Part shown: in pieces, positions 25,523 to 41,973 of the stretch
Numbering within the stretch: position 1 is the first letter of the stretch
Layout: every line of letters starts with the position of its first letter
NCBI GenBank assembly: GCA_003576905.1
Contig: QEVG01000007.1
Coordinates: 62,001-126,000, forward strand
DNA: 64,000 bases
Direction of reading: 5' to 3'
Origin: Planctomycetota bacterium
GTDB taxonomy: Bacteria > Planctomycetota > Phycisphaerae > UBA1845 > UTPLA1
The notes under the pieces: generated by a model
The model's database searches: none
Told to the model about the DNA's origin: nothing
The model's input: the letters and a program-made list of their open reading frames with translations, nothing else
Made by a program: the position numbers and the translations under genes

Positions 25523-26179
25523 TCACAGGGCACCGAGACTCAGCGCGTGCTTCATGATCCACGTGGCAAGCTCGTCCACACCCTTTCCCGAGCGTGCGCT
25601 TGTCTCAAGAATGCGCATGGCCGGGTTGACCCGCAGGAGGTCGCGGCGCGCCTGGGCCATATCAAACGGTACGAAGGGGAGCAGATCGCACTTCGTAATA
25701 AGCGTTAGCGCCGCATCTCGGAAGAGCAGCGGGTACTTGGAAGGCTTGTCGTCGCCTTCCGAGACGCTCAGGGCACTGATCCGGAGGTGTTCGCCCAGGT
25801 CGAAATTCGCCGGGCAGATCGGGTTGCCGACATTCTCGATAATCAGCAGATCGATTCCGGCCGGCAGTTCGTCCAGCGCACGCTGCACGTGCGTCGCGGT
25901 AAGGTGACATCCGCCGTCGGTCAGCAGCTGGATCACCGGGACATCCAGCCGGGCGATGCGCTCGGCATCGCGCGTCGTGGCCAGGTCCCCCTCGAGGACC
26001 GCCGCGCGCAGTTCGCCCCTGAAGATAGGGAGAACGGCTTCAAGGATGGCCGTCTTACCGCTGCCCGCGCCGCCGAGCAGGTTGATGCACGTGACGTGGC
26101 GTTCGTCGAACCACAGGCGGTTCTCCGTCGCCGCGTCGTCGTTCTTCTGAAGCACGCGCCTGAGAACCCTGATCTCCAT
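25523..26179 (-). CDS. hypB: Hydrogenase nickel-incorporation GTPase HypB
   Basis: 218 residues. It delivers nickel to the hydrogenase large subunit with HypA, using GTP. Seen: P-loop LLGGAGSGKT (about residue 35), the metal site region GGCHLTATHV, IENVGNPICPANFDLGEH and the TKCD guanine motif (ITKCDLLPF). The N-terminal His-rich stretch of some HypB proteins is absent, so it has no nickel-storage tail. It lies 39 bases after the malic enzyme gene. Confidence 0.92.
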   Translation of the reverse strand: MEIRVLRRVLQKNDDAATENRLWFDERHVTCINLLGGAGSGKTAILEAVLPIFRGELRAAVLEGDLATTRDAERIARLDVPVIQLLTDGGCHLTATHVQRALDELPAGIDLLIIENVGNPICPANFDLGEHLRISALSVSEGDDKPSKYPLLFRDAALTLITKCDLLPFVPFDMAQARRDLLRVNPAMRILETSARSGKGVDELATWIMKHALSLGAL

Positions 26180-26218: not shown

Positions 26219-27919
26219 CTAGACATACGACGCGTAGTCCGGATACCACATGTGCTGCCGAACGACGACGTCGATCTGCTCCTCGGGGATCAAGCGGCCG
26301 ATGTTTCTTCGCCGTGCCTCGCGGATGACATTCCCGGCGATGCGCCGGCTGACCTCGCGAAGCATGCTCTGGTCGGGATAGATCGCCCCGCACTTGAGCC
26401 GTTCCGGCGACACCATCTCCGCCAGCGTGCGCGCGGCCACGAGGAAGATCTCGTCGGTCACCTCGCTCACTTCCGAAACGATGCAGCCCAGGCCGATGCC
26501 CGGGAAGACGAAGGCGTTGTTTCCCTGGCCGAACACGTGTGCCTGTCCTTCGTATTCGATCGGCGGGAACGGACTGCCGGTCGCGACGATGGCCCGGCCG
26601 CTGGTCCACTGAAGCGCCTCGCTCGGCGTGCATTCCGCCTTTGAGGTCGGGTTCGACAGCGGCAGGATGACCGGTCGATCAACGTGCTTGGCCATCTCCC
26701 GGACGATTTCCTCGTTGAAGGTGCCGGCCTTGGCCGTCACGCCGATCAGGATGGTCGGCTTGATGTGCCGGATCATCTCGAGCAGCGAATACGAGTCGGC
26801 CCCGGTCAGGCCGTAATGGGTCATGGCCTTCCGGCTCAGGGCGAACTCCTTCTTGTGCGGATCATCGACGATGCGCCCCTCGAAAATCAGCCCGTGGGTG
26901 TCGGCGATGGCCTGCGCCTGATTCACGCGTTCGACCGCGTTTTCCTCAGACAGCATCGCCGCCCGAATCAGCCGCGCAATCCCGATGCCGGCATTTCCGC
27001 CTCCGGCATACACGATGCGCTGATCGCTAAGCCTTCCGCCGGTGATCTTCATGGCCGCCATGATGCCGGCCAGAGTGACGCTCGCCGTGCCCTGAATGTC
27101 GTCGTTGAAGCTCGGCACCCGGCGGCGGTACCGGTCGAGCAGGTTAAACGCCGTGTGATGCCCGAAGTCCTCCCACTGAATCAGTGCGTGCGGAAAGACC
27201 TCCTTTACGGCTTCGACGAAGGCCTCGATGAAGTCGTCGTATTCCTTGCCGCGAATGCGCCGATGGCGATAGCCGAGGTAGCACGGATCATTCAGCAATT
27301 CCGCGTTGTTGGTGCCGACGTCAAGGCTGATCGGCAGGCACAGCGTCGGATGGATGCCCGCCGCCGCCGTGTAGAGAGCCAGTTTTCCGATCGGGATCCC
27401 CATGCCGCCCGCGCCCTGGTCGCCCAGGCCCAGGATCCGCTCGTTGTCCGTCACGACGATCAGCCGAATGTCCGGGTACGGCACGTTGCGAAGCATCTCC
27501 GGGATGCGGTCCATGTCATCGGGCGTGATCCAGACGCCGCGGCGCTGGCGAAAGATGTGGCTGTACTGTTGGCACGCCCGGCCCACCGTCGGCGTATAAA
27601 CGATCGGCAGCAACTCGGGCATATTCTCAACGACCACCCGGTAGAAGAGCGTCTCGTTGCGATCCTGAAGCGCGGCAAGACCGATGAACTTCTCGAGGTC
27701 ATCGCTCTTCGCCCGAAGGTGTTCCAGCTCAAGGGCGACCTGCTGCTCGATCGTCAGGTGCGCCGGAGGCAGCAGCCCGCGCAGGCCGAGCCGATCGCGC
27801 TCGTCCTGCGAAAAAGCCGCGCCCTTGTTGTGGATGGGGTCGCGCAGCAGTTCCACGCCGTGAAAAGGCGGCTGGGCGACATTGCGTTTGGTTTCCTTTG
27901 GTTCCGTGACGCCGATCAT
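26219..27919 (-). CDS. maeA: NAD-type malic enzyme
   Basis: 566 residues, the full length of the large SfcA/MaeA type. It oxidatively decarboxylates malate to pyruvate and CO2, or runs in reverse. Seen: [37 protein letters not shown], the metal-binding [31 protein letters not shown], and the dinucleotide loop [14 protein letters not shown]. Its start overlaps the hypA stop by four bases, and hypB follows after 39 bases, so it is embedded in a hydrogenase-maturation operon. Cofactor choice (NAD or NADP) is not certain by eye. Confidence 0.9.
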
Positions 27920-28296
27920 CGAACTCCTCCACCTGCAAGCGCAGTCTCGTCGTGTTCCTCGACATCCAGGGATATCAGTTCAAGTTCATCGCCGCCCTCG
28001 AGGCAGGTCGCGTCGGCGCCGCACGTGGGACACCCCCACTCGTAGCCGTACGCGTCGAAATGATGTCCGCATCCGGGGCAGGCGAGCCGCACAGGCATCG
28101 TCACGATTTTCAGTTCTGCGGCCTCGCATGGTGTGCCGGCCGCCACCATCTCGAAGGCTGTGCACATGAGCTCCGGGTCGATCTGGCGCAGGATGCCGAC
28201 GCGGCAGGTGATCGAGCTAATCCGCGACGCGCCGACCGCCCGCGCCTCCTCACAGGCTGCCTCGATCATGCCGGTCGCAAGCGAGAACTCATGCAT
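27916..28296 (-). CDS. hypA: Hydrogenase nickel-incorporation protein HypA
   Basis: 126 residues starting MHEFS; His2 and Glu3 form the conserved nickel site. A zinc domain with CPGC and CPTC pairs lies at about residues 73-95. It hands nickel to the large subunit with HypB. The start overlaps the protease gene by eight bases, and its end overlaps the malic enzyme by four. Confidence 0.92.
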
Positions 28297-28804
28297 GACA
28301 CGTCTCCTGCGCGGAGCGCCACGCGGCAATGTCCTTTTCGATTACCGCGACGGCCTCCGGAATTGCCCGGGCCACCGCGGGCGACACCTCCTCGCCATAG
28401 CCGCAGTCTTCAGCGGTGATCGCGTAGATCCAGACGTCGCGCGGAAGGTCGCCGATCTCTTCGGCGAGTTCCAGCGCGAGGTCAACGCTCAGCGTGTGCG
28501 TGTCCGTCCGGCAGCGCGTGCGGAGGTGCTCCTTGTGCTCCCAATAGTCCATCCGCGCCACACTGCCCGGCGGATGCCCCACCGCCGAACGCGCGGCGTC
28601 AGCGATGACCAGCAGGCGAATATCGCCCAAGACCGCGGGAATGTCGGTACCAGGCGCCTCCGTGACGATCACGCGGCACCCGGCCGGCGGAAGCCGGCCG
28701 ATCATCCCGGCCACCATCAGCCCCGCTTGGTCGTCGCGGCGCAGCCATCGCCCGCAGCCGACGAGGGCGATATCGGGCTCGTACGGATGTGCCGGGCTGG
28801 CCAT
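28289..28804 (-). CDS. Hydrogenase maturation protease (HyaD/HybD/HycI family)
   Basis: 171 residues. This endopeptidase removes the C-terminal extension of the large subunit after nickel insertion. The family motif near the N-terminus reads ALVGCGRWLRRDDQAGLMVA (usual form GxGNxLxxDDxxG; Asn replaced by Arg). A second conserved Asp is in LLVIADAARS. GGAG is 7 bases before the ATG at 28804. An RpoN-type promoter precedes it. Its likely target is the hydA product, which ends CATHFLDVAWDE. Confidence 0.85.
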   Translation of the reverse strand: MASPAHPYEPDIALVGCGRWLRRDDQAGLMVAGMIGRLPPAGCRVIVTEAPGTDIPAVLGDIRLLVIADAARSAVGHPPGSVARMDYWEHKEHLRTRCRTDTHTLSVDLALELAEEIGDLPRDVWIYAITAEDCGYGEEVSPAVARAIPEAVAVIEKDIAAWRSAQETCHA

Positions 28805-28830
28805 GGCGATTCTCCGTCGCCCATTCATCC

Positions 28831-28986: not shown

Positions 28987-30294
28987 CTATTCATCCCACG
29001 CCACGTCGAGGAAGTGCGTTGCGCACGAAATACACGGGTCGTAGGCTCGAACCAGCATCTCCAGCTTCAGCGTCATCTCTTCACGGCCGAGGCCGGACGT
29101 GAGCAGCCGAGGGACCATCTCGCGCATGTCTTCCTCGATGTTGGCCAGGTTCTGACCGGTCGGGATGATGAGGTTTGCCCCCTCGATGCGATGGTCCTTG
29201 TCGACCGTGTACTCATGAACAAGAAGCCCGCGCGGAACTTCGGCAAGCCCAACGCCCGTGCCGTGGCGCGTCGGAGTCATAAGCGGCTCGACCTTCATGC
29301 CGCGTGTCAGGAGTTCGTCGATGATTTCGATGGACGCCTCGACGCAATGCACCGACTCGACGAGCTGCGCCGTGTTGTTGTGGAAGGGGTTCTCGCAGAT
29401 CGGCTCAAGTCCCAGGTCGCGCGCCGTCTGCCGCGCGATCGGATGAAGCTGGGAATGGTTGTTGTTGAACCGGGCCAGCGCGCCGACGGCATACGTCGGC
29501 GAGTTGGGCGACCGGCAGTGCTTCGCCGCCGAGTGCTCGACGATCGACTCCATGATCCGCTTTCGATAGTCCGCGGCCTTCGTCGGCCTCGGGTCGAGGG
29601 TCGACACGATGTCCCCATCGTAAAATGCGTACTCGCCGTTGTCCGTCTCCTTCAGCGAGACGTACTCGGTCTTCCGGCACAGATCGGGAACCTTGAGCGT
29701 TGAAAAGAGCTTCGCCGTCTCGCGCAGGTCCGCCCGCGCATCCTCGAGCCGCCGCTTGAGCCCGATGAGTTCCTCGTCGGGCGGAACATGGCTCATGCCG
29801 CCGACATGGAGGGCGATGGGGTGGATATGCCGGCCACCGACGACTCCGCAGATATCGTTGGCCAGCTTCTTCATCCTCAGCGCCCTCCGAACGACGTCGG
29901 GATGGGTCTTCGCCAGCGGAATAACCGAACCCACTCCGACGAAATCAGGAACGGCGAGGAAGTACAGGTGGAGAAAGTGGCTCTGCAACTCCTCGCCGTA
30001 GAGGATCAGCTTTCGCAACAGCACGGTCTGCTCGCTGGGCACGATCCCGCAGGCCGCCTCGATCGCCTTCACGCTCGCCGTGGTGTGCCCGACGCTGCAA
30101 ATCCCGCAGATGCGGCAGGTGATGTGCGGGGCCTCGTAGTATCTGCGCCCCCGCAGAAACGCCTCAAAGAACCGCGGGCTCTCCACGATCGCAAGCTGGA
30201 GCTGCGTGATCTCGCCGTCGCTCACCCGGACGCGAATGTTCCCGTGTCCCTCGACGCGGGTCACATGTTTGACATCGATGGTGACGTTCTTCAT
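28987..30294 (-). CDS. hydA: Group 3b [NiFe]-hydrogenase large (alpha) subunit
   Basis: 435 residues. It carries the NiFe active site. The N-terminal ligand motif is RICGIC (61-66) and the C-terminal one DPCISC (419-424), followed by ATH and an eight-residue tail (FLDVAWDE) that the maturation protease should remove after His427. HVTRVEGHGNI at the N-terminus is typical. With HydD, HydG and HydB it forms a cytosolic NAD(P)H-coupled hydrogenase/sulfhydrogenase. The gene overlaps hydD by four bases. Confidence 0.93.
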   Translation of the reverse strand: MKNVTIDVKHVTRVEGHGNIRVRVSDGEITQLQLAIVESPRFFEAFLRGRRYYEAPHITCRICGICSVGHTTASVKAIEAACGIVPSEQTVLLRKLILYGEELQSHFLHLYFLAVPDFVGVGSVIPLAKTHPDVVRRALRMKKLANDICGVVGGRHIHPIALHVGGMSHVPPDEELIGLKRRLEDARADLRETAKLFSTLKVPDLCRKTEYVSLKETDNGEYAFYDGDIVSTLDPRPTKAADYRKRIMESIVEHSAAKHCRSPNSPTYAVGALARFNNNHSQLHPIARQTARDLGLEPICENPFHNNTAQLVESVHCVEASIEIIDELLTRGMKVEPLMTPTRHGTGVGLAEVPRGLLVHEYTVDKDHRIEGANLIIPTGQNLANIEEDMREMVPRLLTSGLGREEMTLKLEMLVRAYDPCISCATHFLDVAWDE

Positions 30295-31076
30295 GGAAGG
30301 TCCGCCTCCTGCCAGGCGCCGAACAGCCGGAAGTCGTCGAGCACGTCCTTCAGCGAGACGTTATACTGCTCACGAAGATTCACGCCCGCCGCCGCCACGG
30401 CCTCCTTCGAGACGATTCCGCGGCAGCCCTCGCACTTCGAGCCGAAGGTCGGACAGATCGCGTTGCACCCGGCCCGCGTCACCGGACCCAGACAGATAAT
30501 GCCCTTTTCGTACAGGCAGAGATTGCCCCGCTTCTTGCATTCGACGCAGACGGCGAAGTCCGGCAACGTAAACGTGCGACCCGCGAGGAGGCTGGTGACG
30601 AAGGAGAGAAACTCCTCCTTCACCATCGGACAACCGGGCAGCGCGTAGTCCACCTTCACCACATCCGAAATCGGCCTGGCCTTCGTCGTCGGAAACCACT
30701 CGGCGCGCTCCCCGTACACGTACCTCCGATACTCGGCGACGTCGCCGTTGCCGGCCACCGGCGGCTCCGCCTCTCCGGCCGCGCCTTGGTAGTGTTTCAG
30801 CGTGTTGATGCCGCCCAGCGCCGCGCAGGAGCCGATGGCAACCAGGATCCTGCACTTGTCCCGGAAGTGCCGCACTTCCTTCTCGTCCTCGGACGTGGAG
30901 ACCGCCCCGTCGACGAAGCCGATGTCGATGTTCCAGTCCTTCTCCGTCATGCCCTCGCGGAAATTGACGATCTCCACCGCGCCGAGAAGATCAAGCAGCT
31001 GGTCCTCCAGCTCAAGGATCGCAAGCGAGCATCCCTCGCATCCCGTCAGACTGAAGATGGCGATCCGTGGTTTCAT
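30291..31076 (-). CDS. hydD: Group 3b [NiFe]-hydrogenase small (delta) subunit
   Basis: 261 residues from the ATG at 31076, preceded by AAGGAG. It carries Fe-S clusters: proximal site TGCEGC (Cys13, Cys16), GSCAALGG and LPGCP, then CVECKKRGNLC and the C-terminal CLGPVTRAGCNAICPTFGSKCEGC. No Tat signal is present, consistent with a cytosolic enzyme. It overlaps the 76-residue unknown gene upstream and hydA downstream, each by four bases. Confidence 0.92.
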   Translation of the reverse strand: MKPRIAIFSLTGCEGCSLAILELEDQLLDLLGAVEIVNFREGMTEKDWNIDIGFVDGAVSTSEDEKEVRHFRDKCRILVAIGSCAALGGINTLKHYQGAAGEAEPPVAGNGDVAEYRRYVYGERAEWFPTTKARPISDVVKVDYALPGCPMVKEEFLSFVTSLLAGRTFTLPDFAVCVECKKRGNLCLYEKGIICLGPVTRAGCNAICPTFGSKCEGCRGIVSKEAVAAAGVNLREQYNVSLKDVLDDFRLFGAWQEADLP

Positions 31077-31303
31077 CGCCGCTCTCCTTGCACCACGCCG
31101 GAATAGACAAGCGGAACAAACGCGCTGACGCCGGGCGGGATCAGGAAGATCGGCATCGGCGCACAGACATATGTGCCGCCCTCGACCTCCGGCGCTCCCT
31201 TTCCTGCTGCGCGGCGGGGCGCCCCCCGCACGCGCCTCGCGCCGCCCTTCGGCGGCCCTGCGGCGCTTCGATGCCTCGACGTCCGATCGCTTCGACGCTT
31301 CAT
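31073..31303 (-). CDS. Small unknown protein embedded in the hydrogenase operon
   Basis: 76 residues: a basic, Arg/Gly/Ala-rich N-terminal half and a hydrophobic C-terminal half with CAPMPIFLIPPGVSAFVPLVY. I do not recognise it. The support is structural: the ATG overlaps the hydG stop (ATGA), GGGAGG lies 8 bases before it, and its stop overlaps the hydD start by four bases, exactly filling the gap. High GC makes chance frames common, so it could still be spurious. Confidence 0.55.
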   Translation of the reverse strand: MKRRSDRTSRHRSAAGPPKGGARRVRGAPRRAAGKGAPEVEGGTYVCAPMPIFLIPPGVSAFVPLVYSGVVQGERR

Positions 31304-32187
31304 TCCACCGCCTCCCGCATGCCCTTGAGCTGGCCGTACTTGAAAACCGGCCCGTCAATGCACACATAGACGTGGTTGGCCTGGCAGTGCCCGCACTTGC
31401 CCACGCCGCACTTCATCCGCCGCTCGAGCGAGCAGTAGATGTTTCCCTGCGGGATGCGCCGGGCGAGCACCTCGATGACGACGAATTTGAACATGACCGG
31501 CGGACCGACGATCACCACGACCGTCTGGTCCGGATTGAGCTTCGAAAGGTCCTTGAAGAGCGTCGTGACGACGCCGACCTTTCCGCGCCACTGCGGATCG
31601 GGCCGATCCACGGTGATGGCGAGATTGACGTCCTTGCTCTCCCGCCAGCGGAGCAGGTCATCCTTAAAAAGCAGTTCCTTCGGCTCGCGGGCGCCGTAGA
31701 GCAGGTGAAACTGCCCGAATCGCGGCCGCTCGTCGAGGATGTACTGGATCAGCGACCGCAGCGGGGCCATGCCCAGGCCGCCGGCGATCATCAGAATGTC
31801 CTTGCCGTGCATCTCGTGGGTGTCGAAGCCGTGGCCCAGCGGCCCCCGGATACCGATGGTGTCTTTTTCCTGAAGCTCGTGCAGCCGATTGGTGACGCTG
31901 CCCACCCTTCGAATGCACAGCTCGAACGTGTCCGGGCGGGTCGGCGAGGAGCAGATCGAGATGGGACACTCGCCCACGCCAAGCATCGAAACCTGGACGA
32001 ACTGGCCCGGCTGCTGATTCAGGCGGCTCCCGTCGAGGAAGCCCAGCTCGAACAGCTTCTCCATTTCAGTGAGCGGGGTGATCCGGATAATCCGCGCGGG
32101 CTGCGGGATGTACAGGCTGGACTCGTGCGCGCTCGATGCTCGCGGCGGGGGCTCGTGCAGAATCGTGGATGATCGGCGGCCGCTCAC
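31300..32187 (-). CDS. hydG: Group 3b hydrogenase gamma subunit (FAD/NAD(P) reductase)
   Basis: 295 residues. A ferredoxin-NADP reductase-like fold: FAD-binding region ISICSSPTRPDTFELCIRRVG, nucleotide-binding motif MIAGGLGMAPLRSLIQYIL, and a C-terminal 2Fe-2S site CSLERRMKCGVGKCGHC. It passes electrons between NAD(P)H and the Fe-S chain. It begins two bases after hydB and overlaps the small unknown gene. Confidence 0.92.
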   Translation of the reverse strand: MSGRRSSTILHEPPPRASSAHESSLYIPQPARIIRITPLTEMEKLFELGFLDGSRLNQQPGQFVQVSMLGVGECPISICSSPTRPDTFELCIRRVGSVTNRLHELQEKDTIGIRGPLGHGFDTHEMHGKDILMIAGGLGMAPLRSLIQYILDERPRFGQFHLLYGAREPKELLFKDDLLRWRESKDVNLAITVDRPDPQWRGKVGVVTTLFKDLSKLNPDQTVVVIVGPPVMFKFVVIEVLARRIPQGNIYCSLERRMKCGVGKCGHCQANHVYVCIDGPVFKYGQLKGMREAVE

Positions 32188-32189
32188 GG

Positions 32190-33239
32190 TTATGCCTCCT
32201 CGGCAAGCTGGTTATAAATCTCCACGGAGTTGATCTTCGCGGTGCAGGCCCGGTCGCATCGGGCACATCCGACGCAGCCCGCAAGCCCGGTCCGCTGGCG
32301 AACCCACTTTGCCTTGCGATAGATCCGGTGCCGCAGCCGCGACGCCGCCCTGGGCCGGAAGTTGTGTCCTCCCGCCACTTCGGCGAAGTTCTTCAGGTGG
32401 CAGCCGTCCCACGTACGCTCCCGCCGACCCGTCGTGCCCGACAGGTCGGATTCATCATAGATGTTGAAGCAATAGCAGGTCGGGCACGACAGGTTACAGC
32501 TGCCGCAGGAGTAGCATCGCCTTGCGGTCGCCTCCCAGAGAAGGGAGTCATAGGATCGATCCAGTAGCTCGGGCAGATCGTTGGCATGCATTCGCAGATG
32601 CCTCGGAAACGCCGCCGCCTTCTCGCGTTCGTATTGCTCAAACGCCCGCTCATCGGCCGCCGTGGGGATCGCGCCGCGCCGGCTGTAGAGAATCCAATCA
32701 CGTCCGGCGTCACTGCCGAACATCACGCCGAAGGTCGTGTCGTCGCGCCCGTCGCGGTGGAGCGGATAGAGCATGACGTCGAATCCCTCGATGGCCGAAT
32801 GTGTCCCCATGTCGGCACAGAACACGCCCTCCGTGCAGGGCGTTCGACAATCCACACCGACGATGAGCGTGTGCGACCGCCGCGCCAGGTAGTGCGCGTC
32901 GCGATGATCCTGCTCAAACACACGGTCCAGGAGCCGGATCGCGTGTATGTCGCACGGATGAACGCCGACGAACGCCATCGGCCGGACATCAAGCACCGGC
33001 TTCGCCGTGAACGTGTGATCGAATCGATTGAACGTAAAGAGCGTCTCGGTGGGCGGAAAGAGAAACGCCCGCGGGCCGTAGACACAGTAGTTAAACGACA
33101 GGTCGAGCGTTCCGACGTCCGCGACTTCTTCATAAAAGAAATGGTTCTCGCGGCGAACCGGACCGATGATCCGGCGTTTCCGGGCCAACTCCCCGACAAG
33201 GGTGAACAGATCGCGCTGTGCAAGCATCCGATCGAGCAT
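32190..33239 (-). CDS. hydB: Group 3b hydrogenase beta subunit (two [4Fe-4S] clusters)
   Basis: 349 residues. The N-terminal 220 residues are the HydB/AsrA-like domain, with FVGVHPCDIHAIRLLDRVF. Two ferredoxin-type clusters follow: CYSCGSCNLSCPTC and CVGCARCDRAC. It links the reductase subunit to the small subunit. GGGAGG lies 6 bases before the ATG and a strong RpoN promoter match sits 37-52 bases upstream. It is the first gene of the structural set. Confidence 0.92.
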   Translation of the reverse strand: MLDRMLAQRDLFTLVGELARKRRIIGPVRRENHFFYEEVADVGTLDLSFNYCVYGPRAFLFPPTETLFTFNRFDHTFTAKPVLDVRPMAFVGVHPCDIHAIRLLDRVFEQDHRDAHYLARRSHTLIVGVDCRTPCTEGVFCADMGTHSAIEGFDVMLYPLHRDGRDDTTFGVMFGSDAGRDWILYSRRGAIPTAADERAFEQYEREKAAAFPRHLRMHANDLPELLDRSYDSLLWEATARRCYSCGSCNLSCPTCYCFNIYDESDLSGTTGRRERTWDGCHLKNFAEVAGGHNFRPRAASRLRHRIYRKAKWVRQRTGLAGCVGCARCDRACTAKINSVEIYNQLAEEA

Positions 33240-33347: not shown

Positions 33348-33365
33348 GTGCGGACTTTTACGCAC
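33348..33365. repeat. GTGCG inverted repeat upstream of the hydB promoter
   Basis: GTGCG (33348-33352) and CGCAC (33361-33365) lie 8 bases apart, about 83-100 bases upstream of the predicted RpoN start, where an enhancer-binding protein could bind. It overlaps the end of the sensor kinase gene. Confidence 0.4.
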
Positions 33366-34833
33366 CAAGCGTGCCTTTTTCCGCCCAGGTGGCGGCCGAC
33401 GACGGCGTGTCAGCGACAAGCGGGAATGCCACGCGCACGCGCGTGCCACGCCCGGGCGCGGATTCCACGTTGACGCGGCCCTTCGCCTGCTCCACCACCG
33501 CCTGCACGATCGACATTCCCAGCCCGCTGCCGGGGATGTCGGCCAGAATCGCCTCACTTCCCCGGCGGTACGGTTCAAAAAGGTGCGCGCGCGTCGCTTC
33601 CGTCATTCCCATGCCGGAGTCGAATACCTCAATCACCGCCGCGCCACCATCGACGCAGTGCGAAACAGTGACATCCCCACCGCCGGGTGTGTACTTGATC
33701 GCGTTATCCAGGAGGTTGGCGAGACAGTCGGCGAGGTCGGCGGCATCCACGCGCACCAGGCCCGCCTGTGCCGGACCCGCCGAGCGCTTCAGCGTGACAC
33801 CCTTCTGCCGTGCGATCGGGGCATAGCGATCGCACACCGCCTGAAGGACCGCAACCGCGTCCGTCCGCGCGGCGGCGTGCCGGTCGGCATCCAGGTCCTG
33901 CATTCGCGCGTAAACGAGAAGATCCGTCACCTGCCCGATTCCCTCCCGGCAGCGCGCAACGATCCGATCGTACAACGTGCGAACCTCTCCCGCCGGAACC
34001 AGCCCCTCGCGAAGCAGGCTGACCTGCGTCTGAATCGCGGCGAGTGGTGTCTTGAGCTGATGCGCCGCGGTCCGCATGAACATCGCCTTGCGCTGCTGGA
34101 GCGCCGAGATCGCCGCTTTCGATTCGCGCAGGGCGCAGATCGCCTGGGCAAGGTTGCGCTCGTGCGACGCCACCCGCGCCACGATTCGGAGCATGAAATA
34201 GAGCATGCCGAAGATGCTGGTTGACGTGATGAATATCGCGCAGAACACAAACCCCGGCTGTTGATGGAGCCGCAGGTCAGGCAGCGCCGGCAGAAAGGGA
34301 TAATGCGGCGTAAGAAACTCCGCCAGCTCGCCGAAGGCCATCAGCGTGTACAGGAGAATCGCCCAGAAGGCGTGAACAAAGACCTCGCGCGCGGTGAGCA
34401 GCAGGGCGGCGATCGCCACGTGGAACAGGTAGAACATCGCCATCGGATTCTCGACGCCCCCCGAGTATCGCAGGAGCAGCGTCAGCGCGAAGAGATCGAC
34501 CGCGATCTGCGCATTGGCCAGAATCGAGGCGCCGCGTACGCCGTCGATCCGGTCCGTTTCGCCCTCGCGAACGCGCTTTCGCAGACCGCTGGTACACAGG
34601 ACCCAGACGATGTTGATGGCGGTAAGCCCCACGATGACGACAAACAGCTGCAACGGCCGCCGCGCCGGCCGCGACAGGACCGCGTCGATCGCCAGCGCGC
34701 CGACGCAGCAGGCCAGCATGATCCATCGAAGGTGAATGAACCACTTGAGCCGCACAAACGACAGCAGCGTCTGCGCGCGGTAACCGCGGGCCTGATCATC
34801 GCCCGAAGGGGCCATTTCCGGCGCCGCGGACAC
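33358..34833 (-). CDS. RegB/PrrB-like sensor histidine kinase
   Basis: 491 residues. Six hydrophobic helices fill about residues 32-220. Between them, LRYSGGVENPMAMF (GGVENP at 125-130) matches the quinone-sensing GGxxNP motif of RegB/PrrB redox kinases. The phospho-acceptor box is AAHQLKTPLAAI (His258). The ATPase domain has LANLLDNAIKYTPGG, VFDSGMGM and GSGLGMSIVQAVVEQ. It is 12 bases after its response regulator gene and lies between maturation and structural genes, so it probably adjusts hydrogenase expression to redox state. Confidence 0.85.
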   Translation of the reverse strand: MSAAPEMAPSGDDQARGYRAQTLLSFVRLKWFIHLRWIMLACCVGALAIDAVLSRPARRPLQLFVVIVGLTAINIVWVLCTSGLRKRVREGETDRIDGVRGASILANAQIAVDLFALTLLLRYSGGVENPMAMFYLFHVAIAALLLTAREVFVHAFWAILLYTLMAFGELAEFLTPHYPFLPALPDLRLHQQPGFVFCAIFITSTSIFGMLYFMLRIVARVASHERNLAQAICALRESKAAISALQQRKAMFMRTAAHQLKTPLAAIQTQVSLLREGLVPAGEVRTLYDRIVARCREGIGQVTDLLVYARMQDLDADRHAAARTDAVAVLQAVCDRYAPIARQKGVTLKRSAGPAQAGLVRVDAADLADCLANLLDNAIKYTPGGGDVTVSHCVDGGAAVIEVFDSGMGMTEATRAHLFEPYRRGSEAILADIPGSGLGMSIVQAVVEQAKGRVNVESAPGRGTRVRVAFPLVADTPSSAATWAEKGTLGA

Positions 34834-34845
34834 GTCGCTCCCTCC

Positions 34846-35247
34846 TTACTTGTGGACGGCCGAAAACGCGCGCCTTACCGACTCCCGCAGGCCGGCCGGG
34901 TCGAACGGCTTGTCGATGAAACCCTCGGCCGGCAGATAGTCGCTGCCCTGCTCGGCGGCGAAGTTCATCCCGGTCCGCTCGGCGATTGCCGAGAGAAAAA
35001 CGATTGGAATCTCGGACAGCGCGTCATCCCGTTTCATCTCGTAGGCAAGGTGAAAGCCCTCCGACGGCTCCGTCAGCATCACATCCAGGAGAATGAGGTC
35101 CGGCCGGATGCGCCGCGCCGCGTCCAGCCCGGCCGGGCCCGTCAGGGCCGATTCGATCCGATACCCCTCCGGCTCCAGGACCCTTCGGACCGCGTCGTGT
35201 ATGTCGCGGTCGTCGTCGATCAGCAGGATGGTCTTCGGTGTCGCCAT
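34846..35247 (-). CDS. Single-domain response regulator
   Basis: 133 residues, one receiver domain only. The acidic pocket is IDDDRDIHDAV, the phospho-acceptor is Asp in LILLDVML (about residue 55), and the conserved Lys is in FIDKPFD. It has no DNA-binding or AAA+ domain, so it cannot itself activate RpoN promoters. It is cotranscribed with the RegB-like kinase and may pass the signal on to another protein. Confidence 0.88.
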   Translation of the reverse strand: MATPKTILLIDDDRDIHDAVRRVLEPEGYRIESALTGPAGLDAARRIRPDLILLDVMLTEPSEGFHLAYEMKRDDALSEIPIVFLSAIAERTGMNFAAEQGSDYLPAEGFIDKPFDPAGLRESVRRAFSAVHK

Positions 35248-35274: not shown

Positions 35275-36312
35275 TCAGCAGATTCGCGGCAGCTCTTCCC
35301 CGTAGGGACGTTGAACGATTCGGCGGCCGCCCGCGCGCGTCCGCAGTTCCACCAGCGGCGGCTCGGCGTCGGTTACGCGCCCGACGATCGCGGCCTCCCG
35401 GCCCAGCGGGTGGTCCTGCATCGCCTTGATCGCCTTCGCCGCGTCTTCCCGGCGCACCACGCAAACCAGTTTGCCTTCGTTGGCCACCGTCAGTGGATCG
35501 AGCCCGAGCATCTCCGCCGCGTGACGCGCCGTCGGCGAAATCGGTATCGCCGCCTCGTTGATCTCAATGCTGTACCCCGATCGCAAACACATATCCGCGA
35601 GCACGCCCGCCACGCCGCCGCGCGTCGGATCGCGCATGAACTTCACGTCCGCTCCGCTCGCCGAAAGCGCCGAGATCAGGTCCGCCAGCGGCGCCGCGTC
35701 GCTCCGCAGGTCGGAGTCGAACGCGATTCCCGCCCGCACCGACATGATCGTCAGCCCGTGGTCGGCGATCCGCCCGCTGAACAGAATCACGTCACCGGAC
35801 TCCACCCGCTCGGTCCCCAGCCGCAAGCCGGGTCGCAGACGGCCGATTCCCGCGGTGTTTAGGAACAATCCTTCATTCCCGCGGCGCTCGATCACTTTCG
35901 TGTCGCCGGTGACGATCGGCACCCGTGCCTCCCGGGCGGCCCTTGCGATGGACGCGACGACGCGGTCGAGCACGTCCAGCGAGAGCCCCTCCTCCATGAT
36001 GACGCCGAGCGAAAGCCCGAGCGGCTCCGCCCCCATGACCGCAAGGTCGTTTACCGTACCGCACACCGCGAGCCGACCGATGTCGCCCCCCGGAAACTCC
36101 AGCGGGGTCACGACATAGGAATCCGTGGTGAACACGACGCTCTGATCGGACCCGATCGGCACGATCGCACCGTCCGCCAGCGGCGCCAGCGCGGGATTGT
36201 TGATCCGGGGCAGGAAATGCGCCTCAATCAATTCCGAGGTCAGTTCGCCCCCGCCGCCGTGAGCCAGCATCACGCGATCCGAAACCCGGCTGGAGATGTG
36301 TGTCGCGGTCAT
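35275..36312 (-). CDS. hypE: Hydrogenase maturation protein HypE
   Basis: 345 residues from the ATG at 36312, preceded by GGAGG. It dehydrates the carbamoyl group on its C-terminal cysteine to make the cyanide ligand of the NiFe site. Seen: MLAHGGGGELTSELI, DSYVVTPLEFPGGDIGRLAVCGTVNDLAVMGA, MRDPTRGGVAGVL, and the terminal PRIC with the essential Cys. It overlaps hypD by four bases. Confidence 0.95.
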   Translation of the reverse strand: MTATHISSRVSDRVMLAHGGGGELTSELIEAHFLPRINNPALAPLADGAIVPIGSDQSVVFTTDSYVVTPLEFPGGDIGRLAVCGTVNDLAVMGAEPLGLSLGVIMEEGLSLDVLDRVVASIARAAREARVPIVTGDTKVIERRGNEGLFLNTAGIGRLRPGLRLGTERVESGDVILFSGRIADHGLTIMSVRAGIAFDSDLRSDAAPLADLISALSASGADVKFMRDPTRGGVAGVLADMCLRSGYSIEINEAAIPISPTARHAAEMLGLDPLTVANEGKLVCVVRREDAAKAIKAMQDHPLGREAAIVGRVTDAEPPLVELRTRAGGRRIVQRPYGEELPRIC

Positions 36313-37418
36313 GACCCACCTCCAATCCGCACGGCCGCGCGCCCGGCGCTTTGTCCGTTGTACTTGTACCATGCCGCGCACGTGCCCTCACTGCTCACCA
36401 TGCACGGCCCGACGGGCGACAGCGGTGTGCATCCGTTCGCGAAGAGGGGACATTCCCCCGGCTCGACAAGCCCTTGAATGACCTCGCCGCACCGGCACGC
36501 CGGATTGTCATCGTCCTCGCCCAGCGCGATTCCAAATCGCTCGATCGCATCGAAGCGCCGATAGGCCGGAGCCAGCTCGAGCCCGCTCGCGCTTATCTCC
36601 CCCAGGGCACGCCAGGGCGCATCCGCCTTGACAAACACCTGACACATCAGCCGCTGGGCGACCGCGTTGCCGGCATCCGAGACGACCGCCTGGTACACGT
36701 TCTCCAACCTTGCCTCCTCGCGCGATGCCTGGCGCACCAGGCGCGCCAGCCCCTCCAGCATCTGCGCCGGTTCGAAGCCCGCCACGACGCACGGCTTGCA
36801 ATAGACCTCGACGATGGGTCGATAGGCCTCGGCCCCGATGATCGTGCTGACGTGACCCGGACAGAGAAAGCCGTCCAGCCGTGTTTCGCCCGCGTCGAGC
36901 AGGGCGCGCATCGCCGGAACCACCCGCTTGTGGCACATCAGCACGGCAAAATTCTCCAGCCCCCGGCGCTCCGCCGTGATCACTGCGGCGGCCGTCGCCG
37001 GCGCGGTCGTCTCAAAGCCGACCGCAAGGAACACGACGGTCCTTTCCGGGCATTCCGCCGCGATATCCACCGCGGTCAGTGCAGACGTCACGACGCGGAT
37101 ATCCGCGCCGTCGGCCCGCGACGATTCCAGGCTCCCCGACCGGCCCGGCACGCGAAGCATGTCGCCATAGGTCGCAATGAGGACACGCGGCCCGCGCGCC
37201 AGCTCGATCGCGGCGTCAATGTGCCGTTGCGCCGTCACGCAGACGGGACACCCCGGACCGCTGATGAGCCGGATGTTGTCGGGAACGAGCGCCCGCAGGC
37301 CGTTTCGATAGAACGAGACCGTGTGCGTTCCGCACACCTCCATGAATCGAACGGTCCGACCCAGCCGCACCGCAGAGTCACCAAGTCCTTCGGCAATATC
37401 TTGCAGGCGCGGGGTCAT
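36309..37418 (-). CDS. hypD: Hydrogenase maturation protein HypD
   Basis: 369 residues. With HypC it assembles the Fe(CN)2CO unit. Seen: EVCGTHTVSFYRNGLR, LISGPGCPVCVTAQRHID, ETTAPATAAAV, LCPGHVSTIIGAEAYRPI and GFEPAQML, all HypD signatures, plus the C-terminal [4Fe-4S] cysteines (CRCGEVIQG... CPLF). It overlaps hypE and hypC by four bases each. Confidence 0.95.
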   Translation of the reverse strand: MTPRLQDIAEGLGDSAVRLGRTVRFMEVCGTHTVSFYRNGLRALVPDNIRLISGPGCPVCVTAQRHIDAAIELARGPRVLIATYGDMLRVPGRSGSLESSRADGADIRVVTSALTAVDIAAECPERTVVFLAVGFETTAPATAAAVITAERRGLENFAVLMCHKRVVPAMRALLDAGETRLDGFLCPGHVSTIIGAEAYRPIVEVYCKPCVVAGFEPAQMLEGLARLVRQASREEARLENVYQAVVSDAGNAVAQRLMCQVFVKADAPWRALGEISASGLELAPAYRRFDAIERFGIALGEDDDNPACRCGEVIQGLVEPGECPLFANGCTPLSPVGPCMVSSEGTCAAWYKYNGQSAGRAAVRIGGGS

Positions 37419-37678
37419 GACGAATCCGCCGTTCCAAGCTGCGGCTCAAGGGTCTCTGCCAATTCGGGGCCGTAGGACTGTTTCAGGTAGTCCCACGTCG
37501 TGAGCGCCTCGCTCTCGTCGATCGTCGCGATGCAGAAACCGGCGTGCACGAGGACCCATGCGCCGGGCCCTGCCTCCGGCGTCAGCACGCGGCACACCCG
37601 CAGGCGGTTTCCCTGCATGTCGACCAGGGCGTCATCATCCTGGCATTCGAGAATTCGCGCTGGAACGGCGAGGCACAT
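37415..37678 (-). CDS. hypC: Hydrogenase assembly chaperone HypC
   Basis: 87 residues starting MCLAVPARI; Cys2 is the conserved metal ligand after Met removal. Also seen: WVLVHAGFCIATIDESEA, the usual C-terminal signature. An ATGATG lets translation start one codon earlier, but Cys at position 2 favours this start. The hypF stop overlaps the start. Confidence 0.94.
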   Translation of the reverse strand: MCLAVPARILECQDDDALVDMQGNRLRVCRVLTPEAGPGAWVLVHAGFCIATIDESEALTTWDYLKQSYGPELAETLEPQLGTADSS

Positions 37679-38859
37679 CATCGGCCCCCTTCCAGCCGGG
37701 CCGTCGCCACGACCGCCTGGCCCAGTGCAATTCCGGCATCCCCCACGGGAGACCGCTCGGGCAGAAGCACGGCAAAGCGGCGCCTTTCCAGAAGCGCCCG
37801 TGTCTGGTCGCGCAGCAGCCGGTTCGCGAAACAGCCGCCGGAAAGCACGACCGTAGAGATCGCATTCCGCTCGGCGGAAATCTGCGCTGCGGCCGCAAGC
37901 ATTCGCGCCACCGTCTCGTGAAACCGCGCCGAGATCACCCGTGGGTCCTCCGCACGGGTGACATCCCGCACAATCGCCCGGATCATCGGCGCCAGCGACA
38001 TGAGCACGCCGTCGCGGCCGACCGTCGTCTGATACGGATAGGGGCTCACCGGCTCTGCCAGCGCGATGCGCTCCAGCGCCATCGCGGCCTGAGCCGGGCG
38101 GTCGTTGTGATCGCAAAGCCCGAGCAGAAAGCTCACGCCGTCGAATACGCGACCAAGGCTCGACGTGGGCGGCGCGTTGATCTCGGTGCGCGAAAGCCGG
38201 CGCATGACGTCCATCTGGTCGGCCGGAACGCGTTCAAACGGGGCGAGGTCCTCGCACCGGCCCACTGCCTGCTGCACCAGCGCGAACGCCGATCGCCAGG
38301 TGTCGATGGCGGCGGCGTCTCCGCCCAGCAGCGGGAAGTACTCCAGGTGCCCCGTGCGCAGGTACTCCGACGCCGTGCAGTACATGATCTCGCAGCCCCA
38401 GGCGGCGCCGTCGTCGCCGAAGCCGATCCCGTCGCAGCAGATTCCCAGCACCGGGCCCGGGTGCCGCCGCTCGGCCATCACGCTCGCGATGTGTGCGTGG
38501 TGATGCTGGACGGCGATCAGCGGCAGCCCGGCCTGCCGCGCGTAATGCGTTGAGAGATAAAGCGGGTGCAGATCGTGCGCGATCACCGCCGGCGAAAAGG
38601 ACGCGCTCCGCGCCGCCGCGTCAATCTGCGCGCGAAACGCGCGGTACACGCTTGGGTCCATCAGGTCGCCGACGGATCGGAAAAGCAATGCCCTGTCGCC
38701 TTCGCAGAAACAGGCTGATGATTGCCGCTCGGCCCCCACGGCCAGGATCGGCGCCGCCGACCTCCGCACAAGTTCAAATGTCTCGGCCTCTCCGATGCCG
38801 CGCACCTCAGGGGGGCCGGCGGCGGCTGCGGACACCGATTTGCGGACGGGACTGGACAT
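37678..38859 (-). CDS. hypF: HypF C-terminal (Kae1-like carbamoyltransferase) domain, stand-alone
   Basis: 393 residues, about half the normal HypF. Present: ILAVGAERQSSACF, the metal-binding HDLHPLYLSTHYA and QHHHAHIASV, GICCDGIGFGDDG, STVVLSGGCFANRLL and GDAGIALGQAVV, i.e. the full Kae1-like domain that moves the carbamoyl group to HypE. Missing: the acylphosphatase, zinc-finger and YrdC-like domains; no other frame in the window supplies them. GGAG precedes the ATG at 38859; an upstream ATG at 38916 falls inside the predicted RpoN promoter, so it is excluded. Confidence 0.85.
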   Translation of the reverse strand: MSSPVRKSVSAAAAGPPEVRGIGEAETFELVRRSAAPILAVGAERQSSACFCEGDRALLFRSVGDLMDPSVYRAFRAQIDAAARSASFSPAVIAHDLHPLYLSTHYARQAGLPLIAVQHHHAHIASVMAERRHPGPVLGICCDGIGFGDDGAAWGCEIMYCTASEYLRTGHLEYFPLLGGDAAAIDTWRSAFALVQQAVGRCEDLAPFERVPADQMDVMRRLSRTEINAPPTSSLGRVFDGVSFLLGLCDHNDRPAQAAMALERIALAEPVSPYPYQTTVGRDGVLMSLAPMIRAIVRDVTRAEDPRVISARFHETVARMLAAAAQISAERNAISTVVLSGGCFANRLLRDQTRALLERRRFAVLLPERSPVGDAGIALGQAVVATARLEGGR

Positions 38860-38911
38860 CGAACCCTGCTCCTGCGACGAAGGCGAAAACTTGGCCTCCG
38901 CAGGAGCGTGA

Positions 38912-38928
38912 TGCAAGATCGGTGCCAG
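38912..38928 (-). promoter_or_regulatory. RpoN promoter of the hypF-hypC-hypD-hypE genes
   Basis: The minus strand reads CTGGCACCGATCTTGCA: TGGCAC and TTGCA with GG-N10-GC spacing, the best sigma-54 match in the window. Transcription would begin near 38,901, about 42 bases before the hypF ATG. Confidence 0.75.
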
Positions 38929-38965: not shown

Positions 38966-39230
38966 TACGACCGCTCGCGCCGCCGATTTCGGACCCCGTC
39001 TCCCGCCCGTGCGGAATAATCGCCCCGTCCCTGCGAAAAATCCCGTCACACCGATTCCTGAAATGTGATCGTTACCGCTCGATCAGGCAACCGGCTCCGC
39101 GCAGCCGCTGGCCCCCGACCCATGCAGTGACTTTGCAGAGCTGTGCCGTTTCCGTAAACTCCCGCCGGTTGAGCCGGGGATTTCATCCTTTTCGGTGCGA
39201 TTCGAAACTCCCTCGCGAAGGAGTGCGACA

Positions 39231-40583
39231 GTGATCAGTGTCAACACCGCGGACTTTGAGGTCGGCATCATCGGCGGAGGTCCGGCCGGCGCGGCGACCG
39301 CCGGCTATCTCGCCAAGGCGGGGATTCCGTGCATCGTCCTCGAACGGGAGCTCTTTCCCCGGCCGCACATCGGTGAGTCGTTCGTACCCGCCACTACGCG
39401 TGTCCTCCGCGAGCTGGACTTCATCGACGAAATGGAGCGCGCGAAGTTCCCCAAGAAGCTGGGCGCGGTGTGGACGGCGAGCGCGAAAGCGCCGACCTAT
39501 CACCACGACTGGGGCGAACTTCCGCCCGACAATTTCACCGACATCCGCTTTGAGGAGCGCCCGCAGGAGGGCGTGGACCGGCGCTACACCTACCACGTGG
39601 ACCGCGGCAAGTTCGACCTGCTCTTCCTTCAGCACGCGCACAAGCTGGGCGCGTCGGTCTACGAGGGTGTAAACGTCACCCATGTCGATCTCGAGGCCGA
39701 GCCTTTCCCGCGCATGTATTTCAAGATGGGCGCCAAGGAGATGTTTGTCTCCGTCAAGATGGTCATCGACGCGTCCGGCCGCGACACGCTCGTCGGCAAT
39801 CAGCTGCGCATCAAGATCAAGGACCCGGTCTTCAACCAGTTCGCGTTTCATACCTGGTTTGAAGGATTCGACCGTCGCGACCCGTCCCACCCCGACAAGG
39901 CCGACTACATCTTCATTCACTTCCTTCCGCTGACCAACTCGTGGATCTGGCAGATTCCGATCACCGACACGGTCACCAGCATCGGCATCGTCACCCAGCG
40001 CCAACACTTCCCCAAAACGCGCGAGGAGCGCGAAAAGTGGTTCTGGGATTGCATCCAGAACCGGCCCGACGTTTACGAACGCCTCCGAGAATCGGAACGC
40101 ATCCGCCCCTTCAAGGAGGAGGGCGACTACAGCTACGCCATGAAGCAGATCTGCGGCAATCGATGGGCGCTCGTGGGCGACGCCGGACGATTCGTCGATC
40201 CGATCTTCTCCAGCGGCGTCAGCATCGCCATGAACGGCGCGCGGCTCATTCAGGCCGATATCCGCCGCGCAGCCGAAATGGGCGACTACGCCAAGCCCAG
40301 TTTCGAAACCTTCGAGCGCACCATGCGCTGGGGCACGCGAAACTGGTACGACTTCATCACCATGTACTACCGGCTGAATGTGCTCTTCACCATGTTCATT
40401 CAGGACCCGCGCTACCGGCTCGACGTGCTCAAGCTCCTCCAGGGCGACGTCTGGGATGAGGAAACTCCCGAAGTCCTCCGCCACATGAAGGAAATCGTCA
40501 CCACCGTCGAACAGAACCCCAATCACGTCTGGCACAGGCTGCTGGGCGACCTCACCTGCAAGGAGTTCAAACCCTCGTTCTGA
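39231..40583 (+). CDS. Flavin-dependent halogenase-like oxidoreductase
   Basis: 450 residues from a GTG preceded by AAGGAG at 7 bases. FAD-binding GGGPAG (15-20), PHIGESFVP (46-53), a KKLGA segment (75-79) and WIWQIP (238-243). WxWxIP is the motif that marks flavin-dependent halogenases and separates them from monooxygenases; later GNRWALVGDAGRFVDPIFSSG binds FAD. The substrate is unknown. It precedes a condensation-domain protein by about 50 bases, suggesting a two-gene pathway to a small modified metabolite. A geranylgeranyl-reductase-like role is the alternative. Confidence 0.75.
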   Translation: MISVNTADFEVGIIGGGPAGAATAGYLAKAGIPCIVLERELFPRPHIGESFVPATTRVLRELDFIDEMERAKFPKKLGAVWTASAKAPTYHHDWGELPPDNFTDIRFEERPQEGVDRRYTYHVDRGKFDLLFLQHAHKLGASVYEGVNVTHVDLEAEPFPRMYFKMGAKEMFVSVKMVIDASGRDTLVGNQLRIKIKDPVFNQFAFHTWFEGFDRRDPSHPDKADYIFIHFLPLTNSWIWQIPITDTVTSIGIVTQRQHFPKTREEREKWFWDCIQNRPDVYERLRESERIRPFKEEGDYSYAMKQICGNRWALVGDAGRFVDPIFSSGVSIAMNGARLIQADIRRAAEMGDYAKPSFETFERTMRWGTRNWYDFITMYYRLNVLFTMFIQDPRYRLDVLKLLQGDVWDEETPEVLRHMKEIVTTVEQNPNHVWHRLLGDLTCKEFKPSF

Positions 40584-40632
40584 CGGACCCGGTGAGACGG
40601 CCCGCGACTCCGCTCCCGGCTCGGTGCCCCTC

Positions 40633-41973
40633 ATGCCGCAGGTCGACCGACAGACTCTCAACGCCGCCGACCGGCTCATGCTCGTCGCGCACAACGGCCT
40701 GCGCGGCGTCGGCCATGCCGGCTTTATCTGCCAGACCCACGCCTGGTTGACCGGAAGGGTCGACGCGCCGCGACTGCGCGCCGCCCTGGCCCGCCTGCAC
40801 CGCCGCTACCCCGTGATCACCTCCCGCCTCGAGGATGCCGGTGGAAGGTCAGTTCCCTGCTGGAGGTTTCGCCGCGACGCGCCGCCCACTCTTCACGAAT
40901 CGACCCGGGCCGAGTCCGGCGAGGCCGCCATCTGGGCTTATGCTGCGCGGCTGTTCGAGCAACCGCTCGATCTCGAACGCATGGATCCGATCTCGTTTCA
41001 CCTGCTTCATCTTCCCGACGACCGCGACGTGCTCGTCCTCGTCTTCAGCCACGTGCTCATGGACGGCAAGGCGCCGGAGTTCGCGCTCAAGGAACTCGAC
41101 CGCTTCTTTCATGAGGAGTCGCCGGATGATGACCCGCCGTCCGACTCCGAACCCGCCTCCGACGGCGACGAGATGGCCGCGCACCTGTACCGTTTCGACG
41201 CGCGACGCCGCCGCCGCGCGGCGTGGAACGTCATCAGGAGCCACATTCGCGTGCCGCAGCGCCCCGTGATCATGACGCCCCCGGAAATGAAGAACTGGCT
41301 CGGCAGTCCATACGGAATCTGCGTCCGCCGACTCGACGAAGCTCAAACGGATGTCCTTATGCAGCGCATCCGGAGGCTGTGTGGCTTTGCCAACCCCACG
41401 CCGGCGCTTGTCGCGGCGGCCTTCCGCGCCGTTGCCGCGCGGTCGCCCGTCAAGCAGACGGCGCGTTCGCTTTTTCAGACCGATCTGCCGCTCAACCTCC
41501 GCCCGCCCGGTCGCACGGAGCCCATCTTCCGAAACTTCATGTCCTTCGTGCAGATGAGCGCGCGGAAATCACACCTCGCCGACCGCGACGACGCCACGCG
41601 CATGTTCAACGCCCAGCTCCGTGACCAGATTCGCCGCGGCATCGACCTTGGCAACCTCCAGATGATGCATGTCATGGCTCCCCGTGCGAACATGCTCCGG
41701 AAACACATCATCGCCAGAATGAAGAACCAGCCCTTCACCCTCGGCTTCGGTTTCCTCGGACCCGTCGCTCCCGGGCTCAATCGGATCTTCGATCAGGATG
41801 TACGCTGGTTGTACAGCCTCAACTCCGCGATTTCGCCGCCGGGCGTCACGCTTCAGGCCAATCAGTCCGGAAACGGCCTGAACATCATGCTGACCTGGAT
41901 CGAGTCCGCCGTGCCCCGCGCCACCGCGGTTGAACTGGTCGACCGGGTCATTGACGACCTCACGCGCCCATGA
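40633..41973 (+). CDS. Condensation-domain-like acyltransferase
   Basis: 446 residues. It has the fold of NRPS condensation/PapA/alcohol-acetyltransferase proteins: an N-terminal half with the catalytic motif FSHVLMDG (His140, Asp144, Gly145) and a C-terminal half with the DLPLNLRPPGR and GFLGPVAP segments. It would join an acyl group to an alcohol or amine. No carrier protein or adenylation domain is nearby. The start is uncertain (GTG at 40624 or this ATG; no strong ribosome site). It probably forms an operon with the upstream flavoenzyme. Confidence 0.7.
   Translation: MPQVDRQTLNAADRLMLVAHNGLRGVGHAGFICQTHAWLTGRVDAPRLRAALARLHRRYPVITSRLEDAGGRSVPCWRFRRDAPPTLHESTRAESGEAAIWAYAARLFEQPLDLERMDPISFHLLHLPDDRDVLVLVFSHVLMDGKAPEFALKELDRFFHEESPDDDPPSDSEPASDGDEMAAHLYRFDARRRRRAAWNVIRSHIRVPQRPVIMTPPEMKNWLGSPYGICVRRLDEAQTDVLMQRIRRLCGFANPTPALVAAAFRAVAARSPVKQTARSLFQTDLPLNLRPPGRTEPIFRNFMSFVQMSARKSHLADRDDATRMFNAQLRDQIRRGIDLGNLQMMHVMAPRANMLRKHIIARMKNQPFTLGFGFLGPVAPGLNRIFDQDVRWLYSLNSAISPPGVTLQANQSGNGLNIMLTWIESAVPRATAVELVDRVIDDLTRP

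Follow-up and report, generated by a model that had tools for sequence, protein, structure and literature searches.

The full-length HypF protein starts from carbamoyl phosphate, converts it into carbamate, adenylates the latter in its YrdC-like domain, and channels the resulting carbamoyl-AMP, a labile intermediate, to its Kae1-like domain, where the carbamoyl group is loaded onto a cysteine of HypE (PMC6022934, PMC9654439, in their accessible text). In t6A synthesis each of the two modules is a protein of its own, with TsaC producing the acyl-adenylate independently of TsaD (accessible text of PMC6022934 / PMC9654439). TsaD/Kae1, served by a free-standing TsaC/Sua5, possesses the same fold as the protein described below and follows the same logic, of a separate YrdC enzyme feeding an acyl-adenylate to a Kae1 transferase, although TsaD acts on tRNA and its sequence similarity to our protein is weak. 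The TobZ/NodU O-carbamoyltransferases also combine Kae1-like and YrdC-like chemistry through carbamoyl-AMP, with the domains fused in reverse order and with hydroxyl groups as targets; here they are of interest as a possible donor, distinct from HypF itself.

Truncated versions of HypF are already known. One example is HypF1 of Cupriavidus necator, encoded between hypB and hypC in the hyp1 operon of pHG1, a protein of 394 aa termed "an unusually truncated version" (PMC5350229). Further examples, of 391 and 393 aa and of the same architecture, are encoded by the plasmids searched of, respectively, C. taiwanensis and Acidovorax temperans, the gene order in all three being hypA-B-F-C-D-E. In the accessible text of the work cited, HypF1 did not replace hypF in an E. 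coli hypF mutant, its synthesis being unconfirmed (PMC5350229), while at a lower temperature it no longer lowered hydrogenase activity, in which its authors saw a possible function, with E. coli's own HypF present. It has been proposed to depend on carbamoyl adenylate, and the source of the activated carbamoyl group for a truncated HypF is a question already raised in print with regard to HypF1 (PMC9100943, accessible text). In addition, as we read a table covering 600 HypF genes near hydrogenases, the YrdC domain is present in 97% and the zinc-finger and acylphosphatase domains in 96% (PMC12727194), implying that a few HypF proteins devoid of these domains are in print already, unremarked in the accessible part of that source. 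What is added here is a lineage in which no HypF besides the short form was found, probably of more than one origin and with sequence marks of its own.

The gene in question belongs to a [NiFe] hydrogenase cluster within the window (the whole 64-kb stretch of planctomycete DNA analyzed; Table 1), and its product is of the HypF1 kind, a Kae1-like domain alone, of about 390-400 aa, encoded inside a hyp operon. It is approximately 37% identical to HypF1; unlike C. necator, which also carries a HypF2 of 807 aa, the genome harboring the window has the short form as the only HypF found. Pfam recognizes HypF_C at residues 35-130 and HypF_C_2 at residues 139-381, and otherwise weak TsaD similarity (33.6 bits), the scores for the two Kae1-like domain models being 99.2 bits versus a cut-off of 23 (PF17788) and 235.7 versus 27 (PF22521). 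The NCBIfam hypF model (TIGR00143, a full-length equivalog) returns 251.3 bits, below its curated cut-off of 466.1, a score that takes more than the last HypF domain to reach; the match covers positions 388-740 of the 741 in the model, and the alignment to the 761-residue HypF 3vth covers residues 392-752. The TsaD model TIGR03723 scores 40.5 bits, below its cut-off of 296.1. The AlphaFold model of the protein has a mean pLDDT of 91.8 (residues 1-20 are below 50), and the structures it matches best are chains of HypF, led by the HypE-HypF complex 3vti with a TM-score of 0.88 (by query length). The C-terminal Kae1-like domain, the catalytic residues and the operon context are thus held in common with canonical HypF (3vth/3vti; 3tsp of E. 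coli), while the acylphosphatase, zinc-finger and YrdC-like domains of the latter are missing, neither Pfam nor a profile of HypF N-halves detecting them in the protein. The initial annotation, which had described this hypF as encoding the C-terminal carbamoyltransferase domain only, is borne out by the agreement of Pfam, the 3vth alignment and the NCBIfam positions.

Table 1. Features of the hydrogenase cluster and of the region upstream of hypF (positions in the window)
Feature	Position	Strand	Basis or remark
Short hypF, encoding the Kae1-like carbamoyltransferase domain alone (393 aa)	37678..38859	minus	ORF, Pfam, NCBIfam, structure matches
RpoN (sigma-54) -24/-12 type promoter site, TGGCACCGATCTTGCA	38912..38927	minus	pattern match
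hypC, starts MCLAVPARI, ATGA overlap with hypF stop	37415..37678	minus	start placed by hand
hypD	36309..37418	minus	PF01924, E 1.8e-141
hypE, C-terminal PRIC kept	35275..36312	minus	start placed by hand at internal ATG overlapping hypD end
Response regulator receiver protein	34846..35247	minus	domain match
Histidine kinase, PilS-like membrane part	33358..34833	minus	domain match
Sulfhydrogenase-like (presumably group 3b) beta subunit	32190..33239	minus	below curated cut-offs
FAD/NAD-binding subunit, presumably sulfhydrogenase gamma-like	31300..32187	minus	domain match
[NiFe] hydrogenase small (delta-like) subunit	30291..31367	minus	below NCBIfam cut-offs; true start probably inside frame
[NiFe] hydrogenase large (alpha-like) subunit	28987..30294	minus	below NCBIfam cut-offs
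Hydrogenase maturation protease	28289..28828	minus	domain match
hypA	27916..28329	minus	domain match
hypB	25523..26179	minus	TIGR00073 over cut-off

The hypF frame is open throughout, with an ATG at 38859 and AGGAG upstream of it. The match to what we take to be the RpoN consensus, TGGCACCGATCTTGCA, is the single one in the 64-kb window, with 0.04 expected, and 4 of 100 shuffled sequences contain a match; an alternative upstream start, TTG at 38916, would sit within this predicted site. The missing N-half, of about 1.1 kb, has no space upstream, because a divergent FAD gene begins at 39195, 335 bp from the hypF start, and the claim that the promoter region leaves no room for the missing part stands. 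A sequencing deletion at 38,860, which had been named as one of the findings that could overturn the truncation, is rejected, as is a frameshift there, since relatives carry the same short form and the upstream region is occupied by the promoter and the divergent gene. The window hypF is therefore a genuine transferase-only HypF rather than an artefact. The divergent genes themselves (39195-41973, plus strand) encode a tryptophan-halogenase-like FAD enzyme and a protein weakly similar to a condensation domain.

From 38859 down, the minus strand carries hypF-C-D-E, a two-component pair, four hydrogenase subunits, which we assign, presumably, to a sulfhydrogenase-like enzyme of group 3b, the protease, hypA, malic enzyme and hypB. 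The malic enzyme gene (26219-27919) sits between hypA and hypB of the hydrogenase cluster. Comparing 26 loci with the short form against 11 other loci, no partner gene widely conserved beside the short hypF was found: the clusters present at 10 or more of the 26 loci, to which annotation was applied, are hypF/C/D/E/A/B, the hydrogenase subunits, the protease, the two-component pair, and frames that overlap these genes or run antisense to them, clustering having been done on crude stop-to-stop frames. The C-terminal end of HypE is PRIC at 23 of the 26 loci, the other three being two from which no HypE was obtained and one fragment.

As to a second HypF or a stand-alone N-half, both are rejected for the window genome (4.71 Mb in 65 contigs, 97.2% complete) on the basis of genome-wide searches for HypF_C_2, zf-HYPF, PF01300 and the N-half. 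HypF_C_2 has a single match at E <= 1e-15, zf-HYPF has none over its cut-off (one sub-threshold match of 13.9 bits), and PF01300 (YrdC) identifies one domain, at C43:55986-56552. A profile built from 22 HypF N-halves detected no N-half in this genome, matching only an acylphosphatase-like stretch (the first 60 profile positions) and TsaC. Thus the search that the initial annotation had called for, of a free N-half or a second hypF, came out in its favor, and its statement that the domains making carbamoyl-AMP are missing from the gene and from the window can be extended to a HypF N-half genome-wide.

The initial annotation had also called for a search of related genomes for the same split form, which is indeed frequent there. 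Among 392 genomes of the phylum, 97 of the matches listed span the HypF_C_2 domain, and 6 of these lie in frames shorter than 560 aa, two of them cut by contig ends (G267, G211), one near a contig end (G279) and three internal (in the window genome, G000; in G073; and in G039, as an additional copy). Of the 114 genomes in the order to which the window belongs, 75 match the HypF search and 68 rows span the domain: 24 are short frames that begin and end within the contig, 38 are frames 696-934 codons long, and 6 that contig ends cut or that were ambiguous (G432, G437, G475, G410, G425, G411) did not enter the short count. The short form is thus found in 24 of the 62 resolvable members of the order, including two single-contig assemblies (G499 and G500). 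N-half pieces were found on other contig ends for G410, G411 and G425. Five of the six genomes cut or ambiguous, having a portion of the N-half either within the frame or at the end of a different contig, entered the trees and residue counts as full-length, with G475 omitted. Among the 80 loci listed from a scan of 84,980 species, the only internal short frames were those of two order members (L163, L168). A literature search on HypF together with Phycisphaera and NiFe found nothing. Two other variants were observed. The 696-codon HypF frame of L038 (G426) matches the N-half profile only from position 124 and seems to be missing just the acylphosphatase domain, and L102 (G039, outside the order) combines a full-length HypF with a second, short and diverged copy.

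An N-half could exist in such genomes and be missed, through an assembly gap or through divergence past detection. The window genome is incomplete and split into 65 contigs, the profile could overlook an N-half that had diverged very far, and the short frame of G442 begins 44 bases from a contig end, its upstream side lying outside the contig. However, the profile search of 48 genomes found a HypF N-half in none of the 24 short-form genomes of the order, the single-contig G499 and G500 included, the top score, 39.9 bits, belonging to a TsaC, while all 16 genomes with full-length HypF used as controls were recovered at E 5.6e-124 to 1.2e-182. Of these controls, 11 were themselves represented in the profile; the remaining five, absent from it (G394, G421, G426, G431, G445), were recovered at E 5.6e-124 to 6.5e-174. 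We consider a missed N-half exceedingly improbable. An acylphosphatase-like match outside hypF, scored by the N-half profile only, does not discriminate between the two groups, occurring in all 24 short-form genomes and in 15 of the 16 controls.

Our trees point to more than one origin of the short HypF in the order, which we regard as probable. A careful tree made by maximum likelihood from 46 transferase domains, 24 of which are short and 22 not, requires four changes of the short label; its well-supported branches force at least three changes of form, and a single change is not seen in any of 200 bootstrap trees. Such a count does not separate gain from loss, so that three changes could equal one gain and two losses, but regaining the N-half would need refusion. 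The clade of the window HypF is mostly its own family, the near relatives including the full-length protein of G501 (weak support, 86/27 and 88/83), while the second clade, comprising 13 short forms (80/93), is placed elsewhere, as is the short form of G406. G499 and G500 join the other short clade in two quicker trees and that of the window in the careful tree. In a quicker tree that included rows from outside, HypF1 of C. necator joins the second short clade and not the window's, but its branch there was flagged as being too long for trust. The tree and residue counts omitted duplicate loci, partial matches and loci L104-L162, and the careful tree further omitted G073, the second copy of G039, HypF1 and ten distant full-length rows.

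Some of the short forms have long end branches (1.42 in G412, 1.3 in G406 and 1.03 in G423, versus a median of 0.49), and these, along with the apparent inactivity of HypF1 in E. coli in the accessible account of that experiment, are what could be expected of a decaying system, with HypF inactive or repurposed and the hydrogenase poorly matured. This we find very unlikely: the hyp genes, the catalytic residues and the PRIC ends persist across many genera, and the short frame is open and conserved in 24 genomes.

The residues themselves were compared between 27 short forms (24 from the order, G073, the second copy of G039, and HypF1 of C. necator, with HypF2 left out of the counts) and 138 comparison HypF proteins (31 from the order, 29 from the phylum and 78 others, some cut by contig ends). 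The HxxxH...Asp motif, named as catalytic in the literature (PMC6022934 / PMC9654439, accessible text), is maintained in the short forms, with H119 and H123 present in 27 of 27 and D374 in 26. Two other positions differ. At position 62, within the SxHxGDL stretch, 131 of the 138 comparison proteins have His and 7 have Tyr or Phe, versus none of the 27 short forms, five of which (G441, G451, G446, G448 and HypF1) have a His one position later, making the exact register of position 62 uncertain there. At position 375, adjoining the metal-binding Asp, Gly is found in 132 of the 138, while in the short forms Ala is found in 19 of 27 and Gly in 2. HypF1 shares both features, with Ala after the metal-binding Asp and without the conserved His. 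As the full-length members of the order (L091, for example) keep both His and Gly (31 of 31), these marks must have arisen repeatedly if the truncations did.

The repeated change of Gly to Ala beside the metal-binding Asp, and the loss of a His or aromatic residue kept in 138 of 138 comparison proteins, could also mean that the short HypF has been remodeled so that carbamoyl phosphate, or some other donor, serves it directly, with no adenylating partner needed, and the finding of no widely conserved partner gene adjoining hypF would agree with this. However, the core nucleotide and metal residues of Kae1 are kept, lost contacts to the missing half account equally well for the residue changes, and we know of no member of the Kae1 family that uses carbamoyl phosphate directly. 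Such direct use appears to us improbable. The short HypF is almost certainly a stand-alone transferase; it is a genuine, probably functional HypF cut down to its transferase module, and no other HypF was found in its genome. It would keep only the last step, the carbamoylation of the HypE cysteine, taking ready-made carbamoyl-AMP from another protein, as TsaD takes threonylcarbamoyl-AMP from free TsaC. That carbamoyl-AMP is supplied in trans we consider likely, although its lability and the channeling in full-length HypF, as described in the accessible text of the papers cited above, argue against free diffusion. The simplest reading, by analogy, would be that the short HypF is back to the separate-module arrangement of t6A synthesis.

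Which protein may act as the supplier is less certain. TsaC is the natural candidate, because it is the only PF01300 gene left in the window genome. It is a 430-aa protein (L001:1006-2298; G000:C43) in which the YrdC domain is joined to a low-molecular-weight (tyrosine) phosphatase domain, and its gene adjoins an rpiB-like gene (named from the translation). In the proposed scheme, this protein would make carbamoyl-AMP either with ammonia or carbamate replacing threonine or starting from carbamoyl phosphate. In a search of 49 genomes, exactly one PF01300 gene over the cut-off, of the TsaC type, was present in 21 of the 24 short-form genomes. Nothing in its sequence marks TsaC as adapted to HypF: comparing 24 with 23 genomes, no TsaC residue or fusion clearly marks those with the short HypF, and tsaC is unlinked to hypF, being on a different contig in 22 of 24 genomes and far apart in the two single-contig ones. 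It also counts against TsaC that HypF1, its synthesis unconfirmed, did not replace hypF in E. coli, a host with a PF01300 protein (accessible account). Overall, we put TsaC as the main source of carbamoyl-AMP at slightly short of an even chance.

Low-molecular-weight phosphatases split acyl phosphates, and the phosphatase fused to TsaC is a possible preadaptation. It is not evidence for a role of TsaC, because the fusion is equally common in genomes with full HypF or with none found; the motif pattern is present in 46 of 47 TsaC proteins, that of G441 aligning over the domain without matching the pattern. A literature search on low-molecular-weight phosphatases splitting acyl phosphates returned nothing related by title.

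A second source of carbamoyl-AMP could be an O-carbamoyltransferase of the TobZ/NodU type, whose C-terminal YrdC-like domain (Carbam_trans_C, PF16861) makes carbamoyl-AMP from carbamoyl phosphate and ATP. This had not been considered in the initial annotation, which had proposed a separate YrdC-like partner such as TsaC/Sua5; that proposal holds inasmuch as TsaC is the sole PF01300 gene left, and it is incomplete inasmuch as the TobZ-like source is also present. PF16861 is found in the window genome (G000:C33:59909-60487) and in 22 of the 24 short-form genomes of the order, versus 1 of 14 control organisms, and enzymes of this type do go through carbamoyl-AMP made from carbamoyl phosphate (PMC6022934, PMC9654439, accessible text). 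However, it is also common in genomes with full-length HypF (12 of 16), TobZ-type enzymes possess a Kae1-like domain and a channel of their own (same sources), and the gene is not beside hypF, being on other contigs, 35 kb off on the same contig (G459), or further away in the single-contig genomes. As a necessary partner it is rejected, no TobZ-like protein having been found in G440 (97% complete), G495 (87%) and G073 (79%), all with a short HypF. Nor do G440 and G495 have a second PF01300 gene, so that no YrdC-type enzyme besides TsaC was found in these two genomes, the latter being 87% complete. We hold a TobZ-like supplier to be unlikely. In general, a carbamoyltransferase gene of the TobZ/NodU type occurs in 34 of the 41 genomes searched.

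The explanation we prefer, of a working transferase-only HypF with carbamoyl-AMP coming from another protein and, less certainly, from TsaC, is one that, taken as a whole, we judge to be evenly balanced between right and wrong. In its favor are the Kae1-only architecture, the kept catalytic residues, the PRIC end of HypE, the intact operon, the recurrence of the form and the lack of a detectable N-half. A more far-reaching scenario can be drawn, in which the four-domain HypF machine was dismantled more than once in one planctomycete order, its front half discarded and the work passed to TsaC of t6A synthesis; the fused phosphatase could stand in for the lost acylphosphatase, hydrogenase cyanide and tRNA modification would share one adenylating enzyme, and the lost His and the Gly-to-Ala change would be traces of the switch, from channeling inside HypF to supply by an outside protein. 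This scenario in full we regard as rather doubtful. If TsaC does act in this way, metallocofactor assembly, too, would be fed by a universal enzyme of tRNA modification. While the longer HypF2 of C. necator blurs a test of where the carbamoyl group comes from, the 24 genomes with only the short form found make the question clean, with two candidate suppliers now named along with their presence and absence, and with two sequence marks of the switch offered.

As a general supplier, a second PF01300 gene is rejected, as among the short-form genomes only G496, G499 and G500 have one, along with G493 and G502, in which the search at E up to 1e-15 found no HypF. In these five genomes (L134-L138: G499, G500, G496, G493, G502) the second gene is the higher-scoring one and does not encode the phosphatase motif, while the fusion of TsaC to the phosphatase is general among the order genomes examined.
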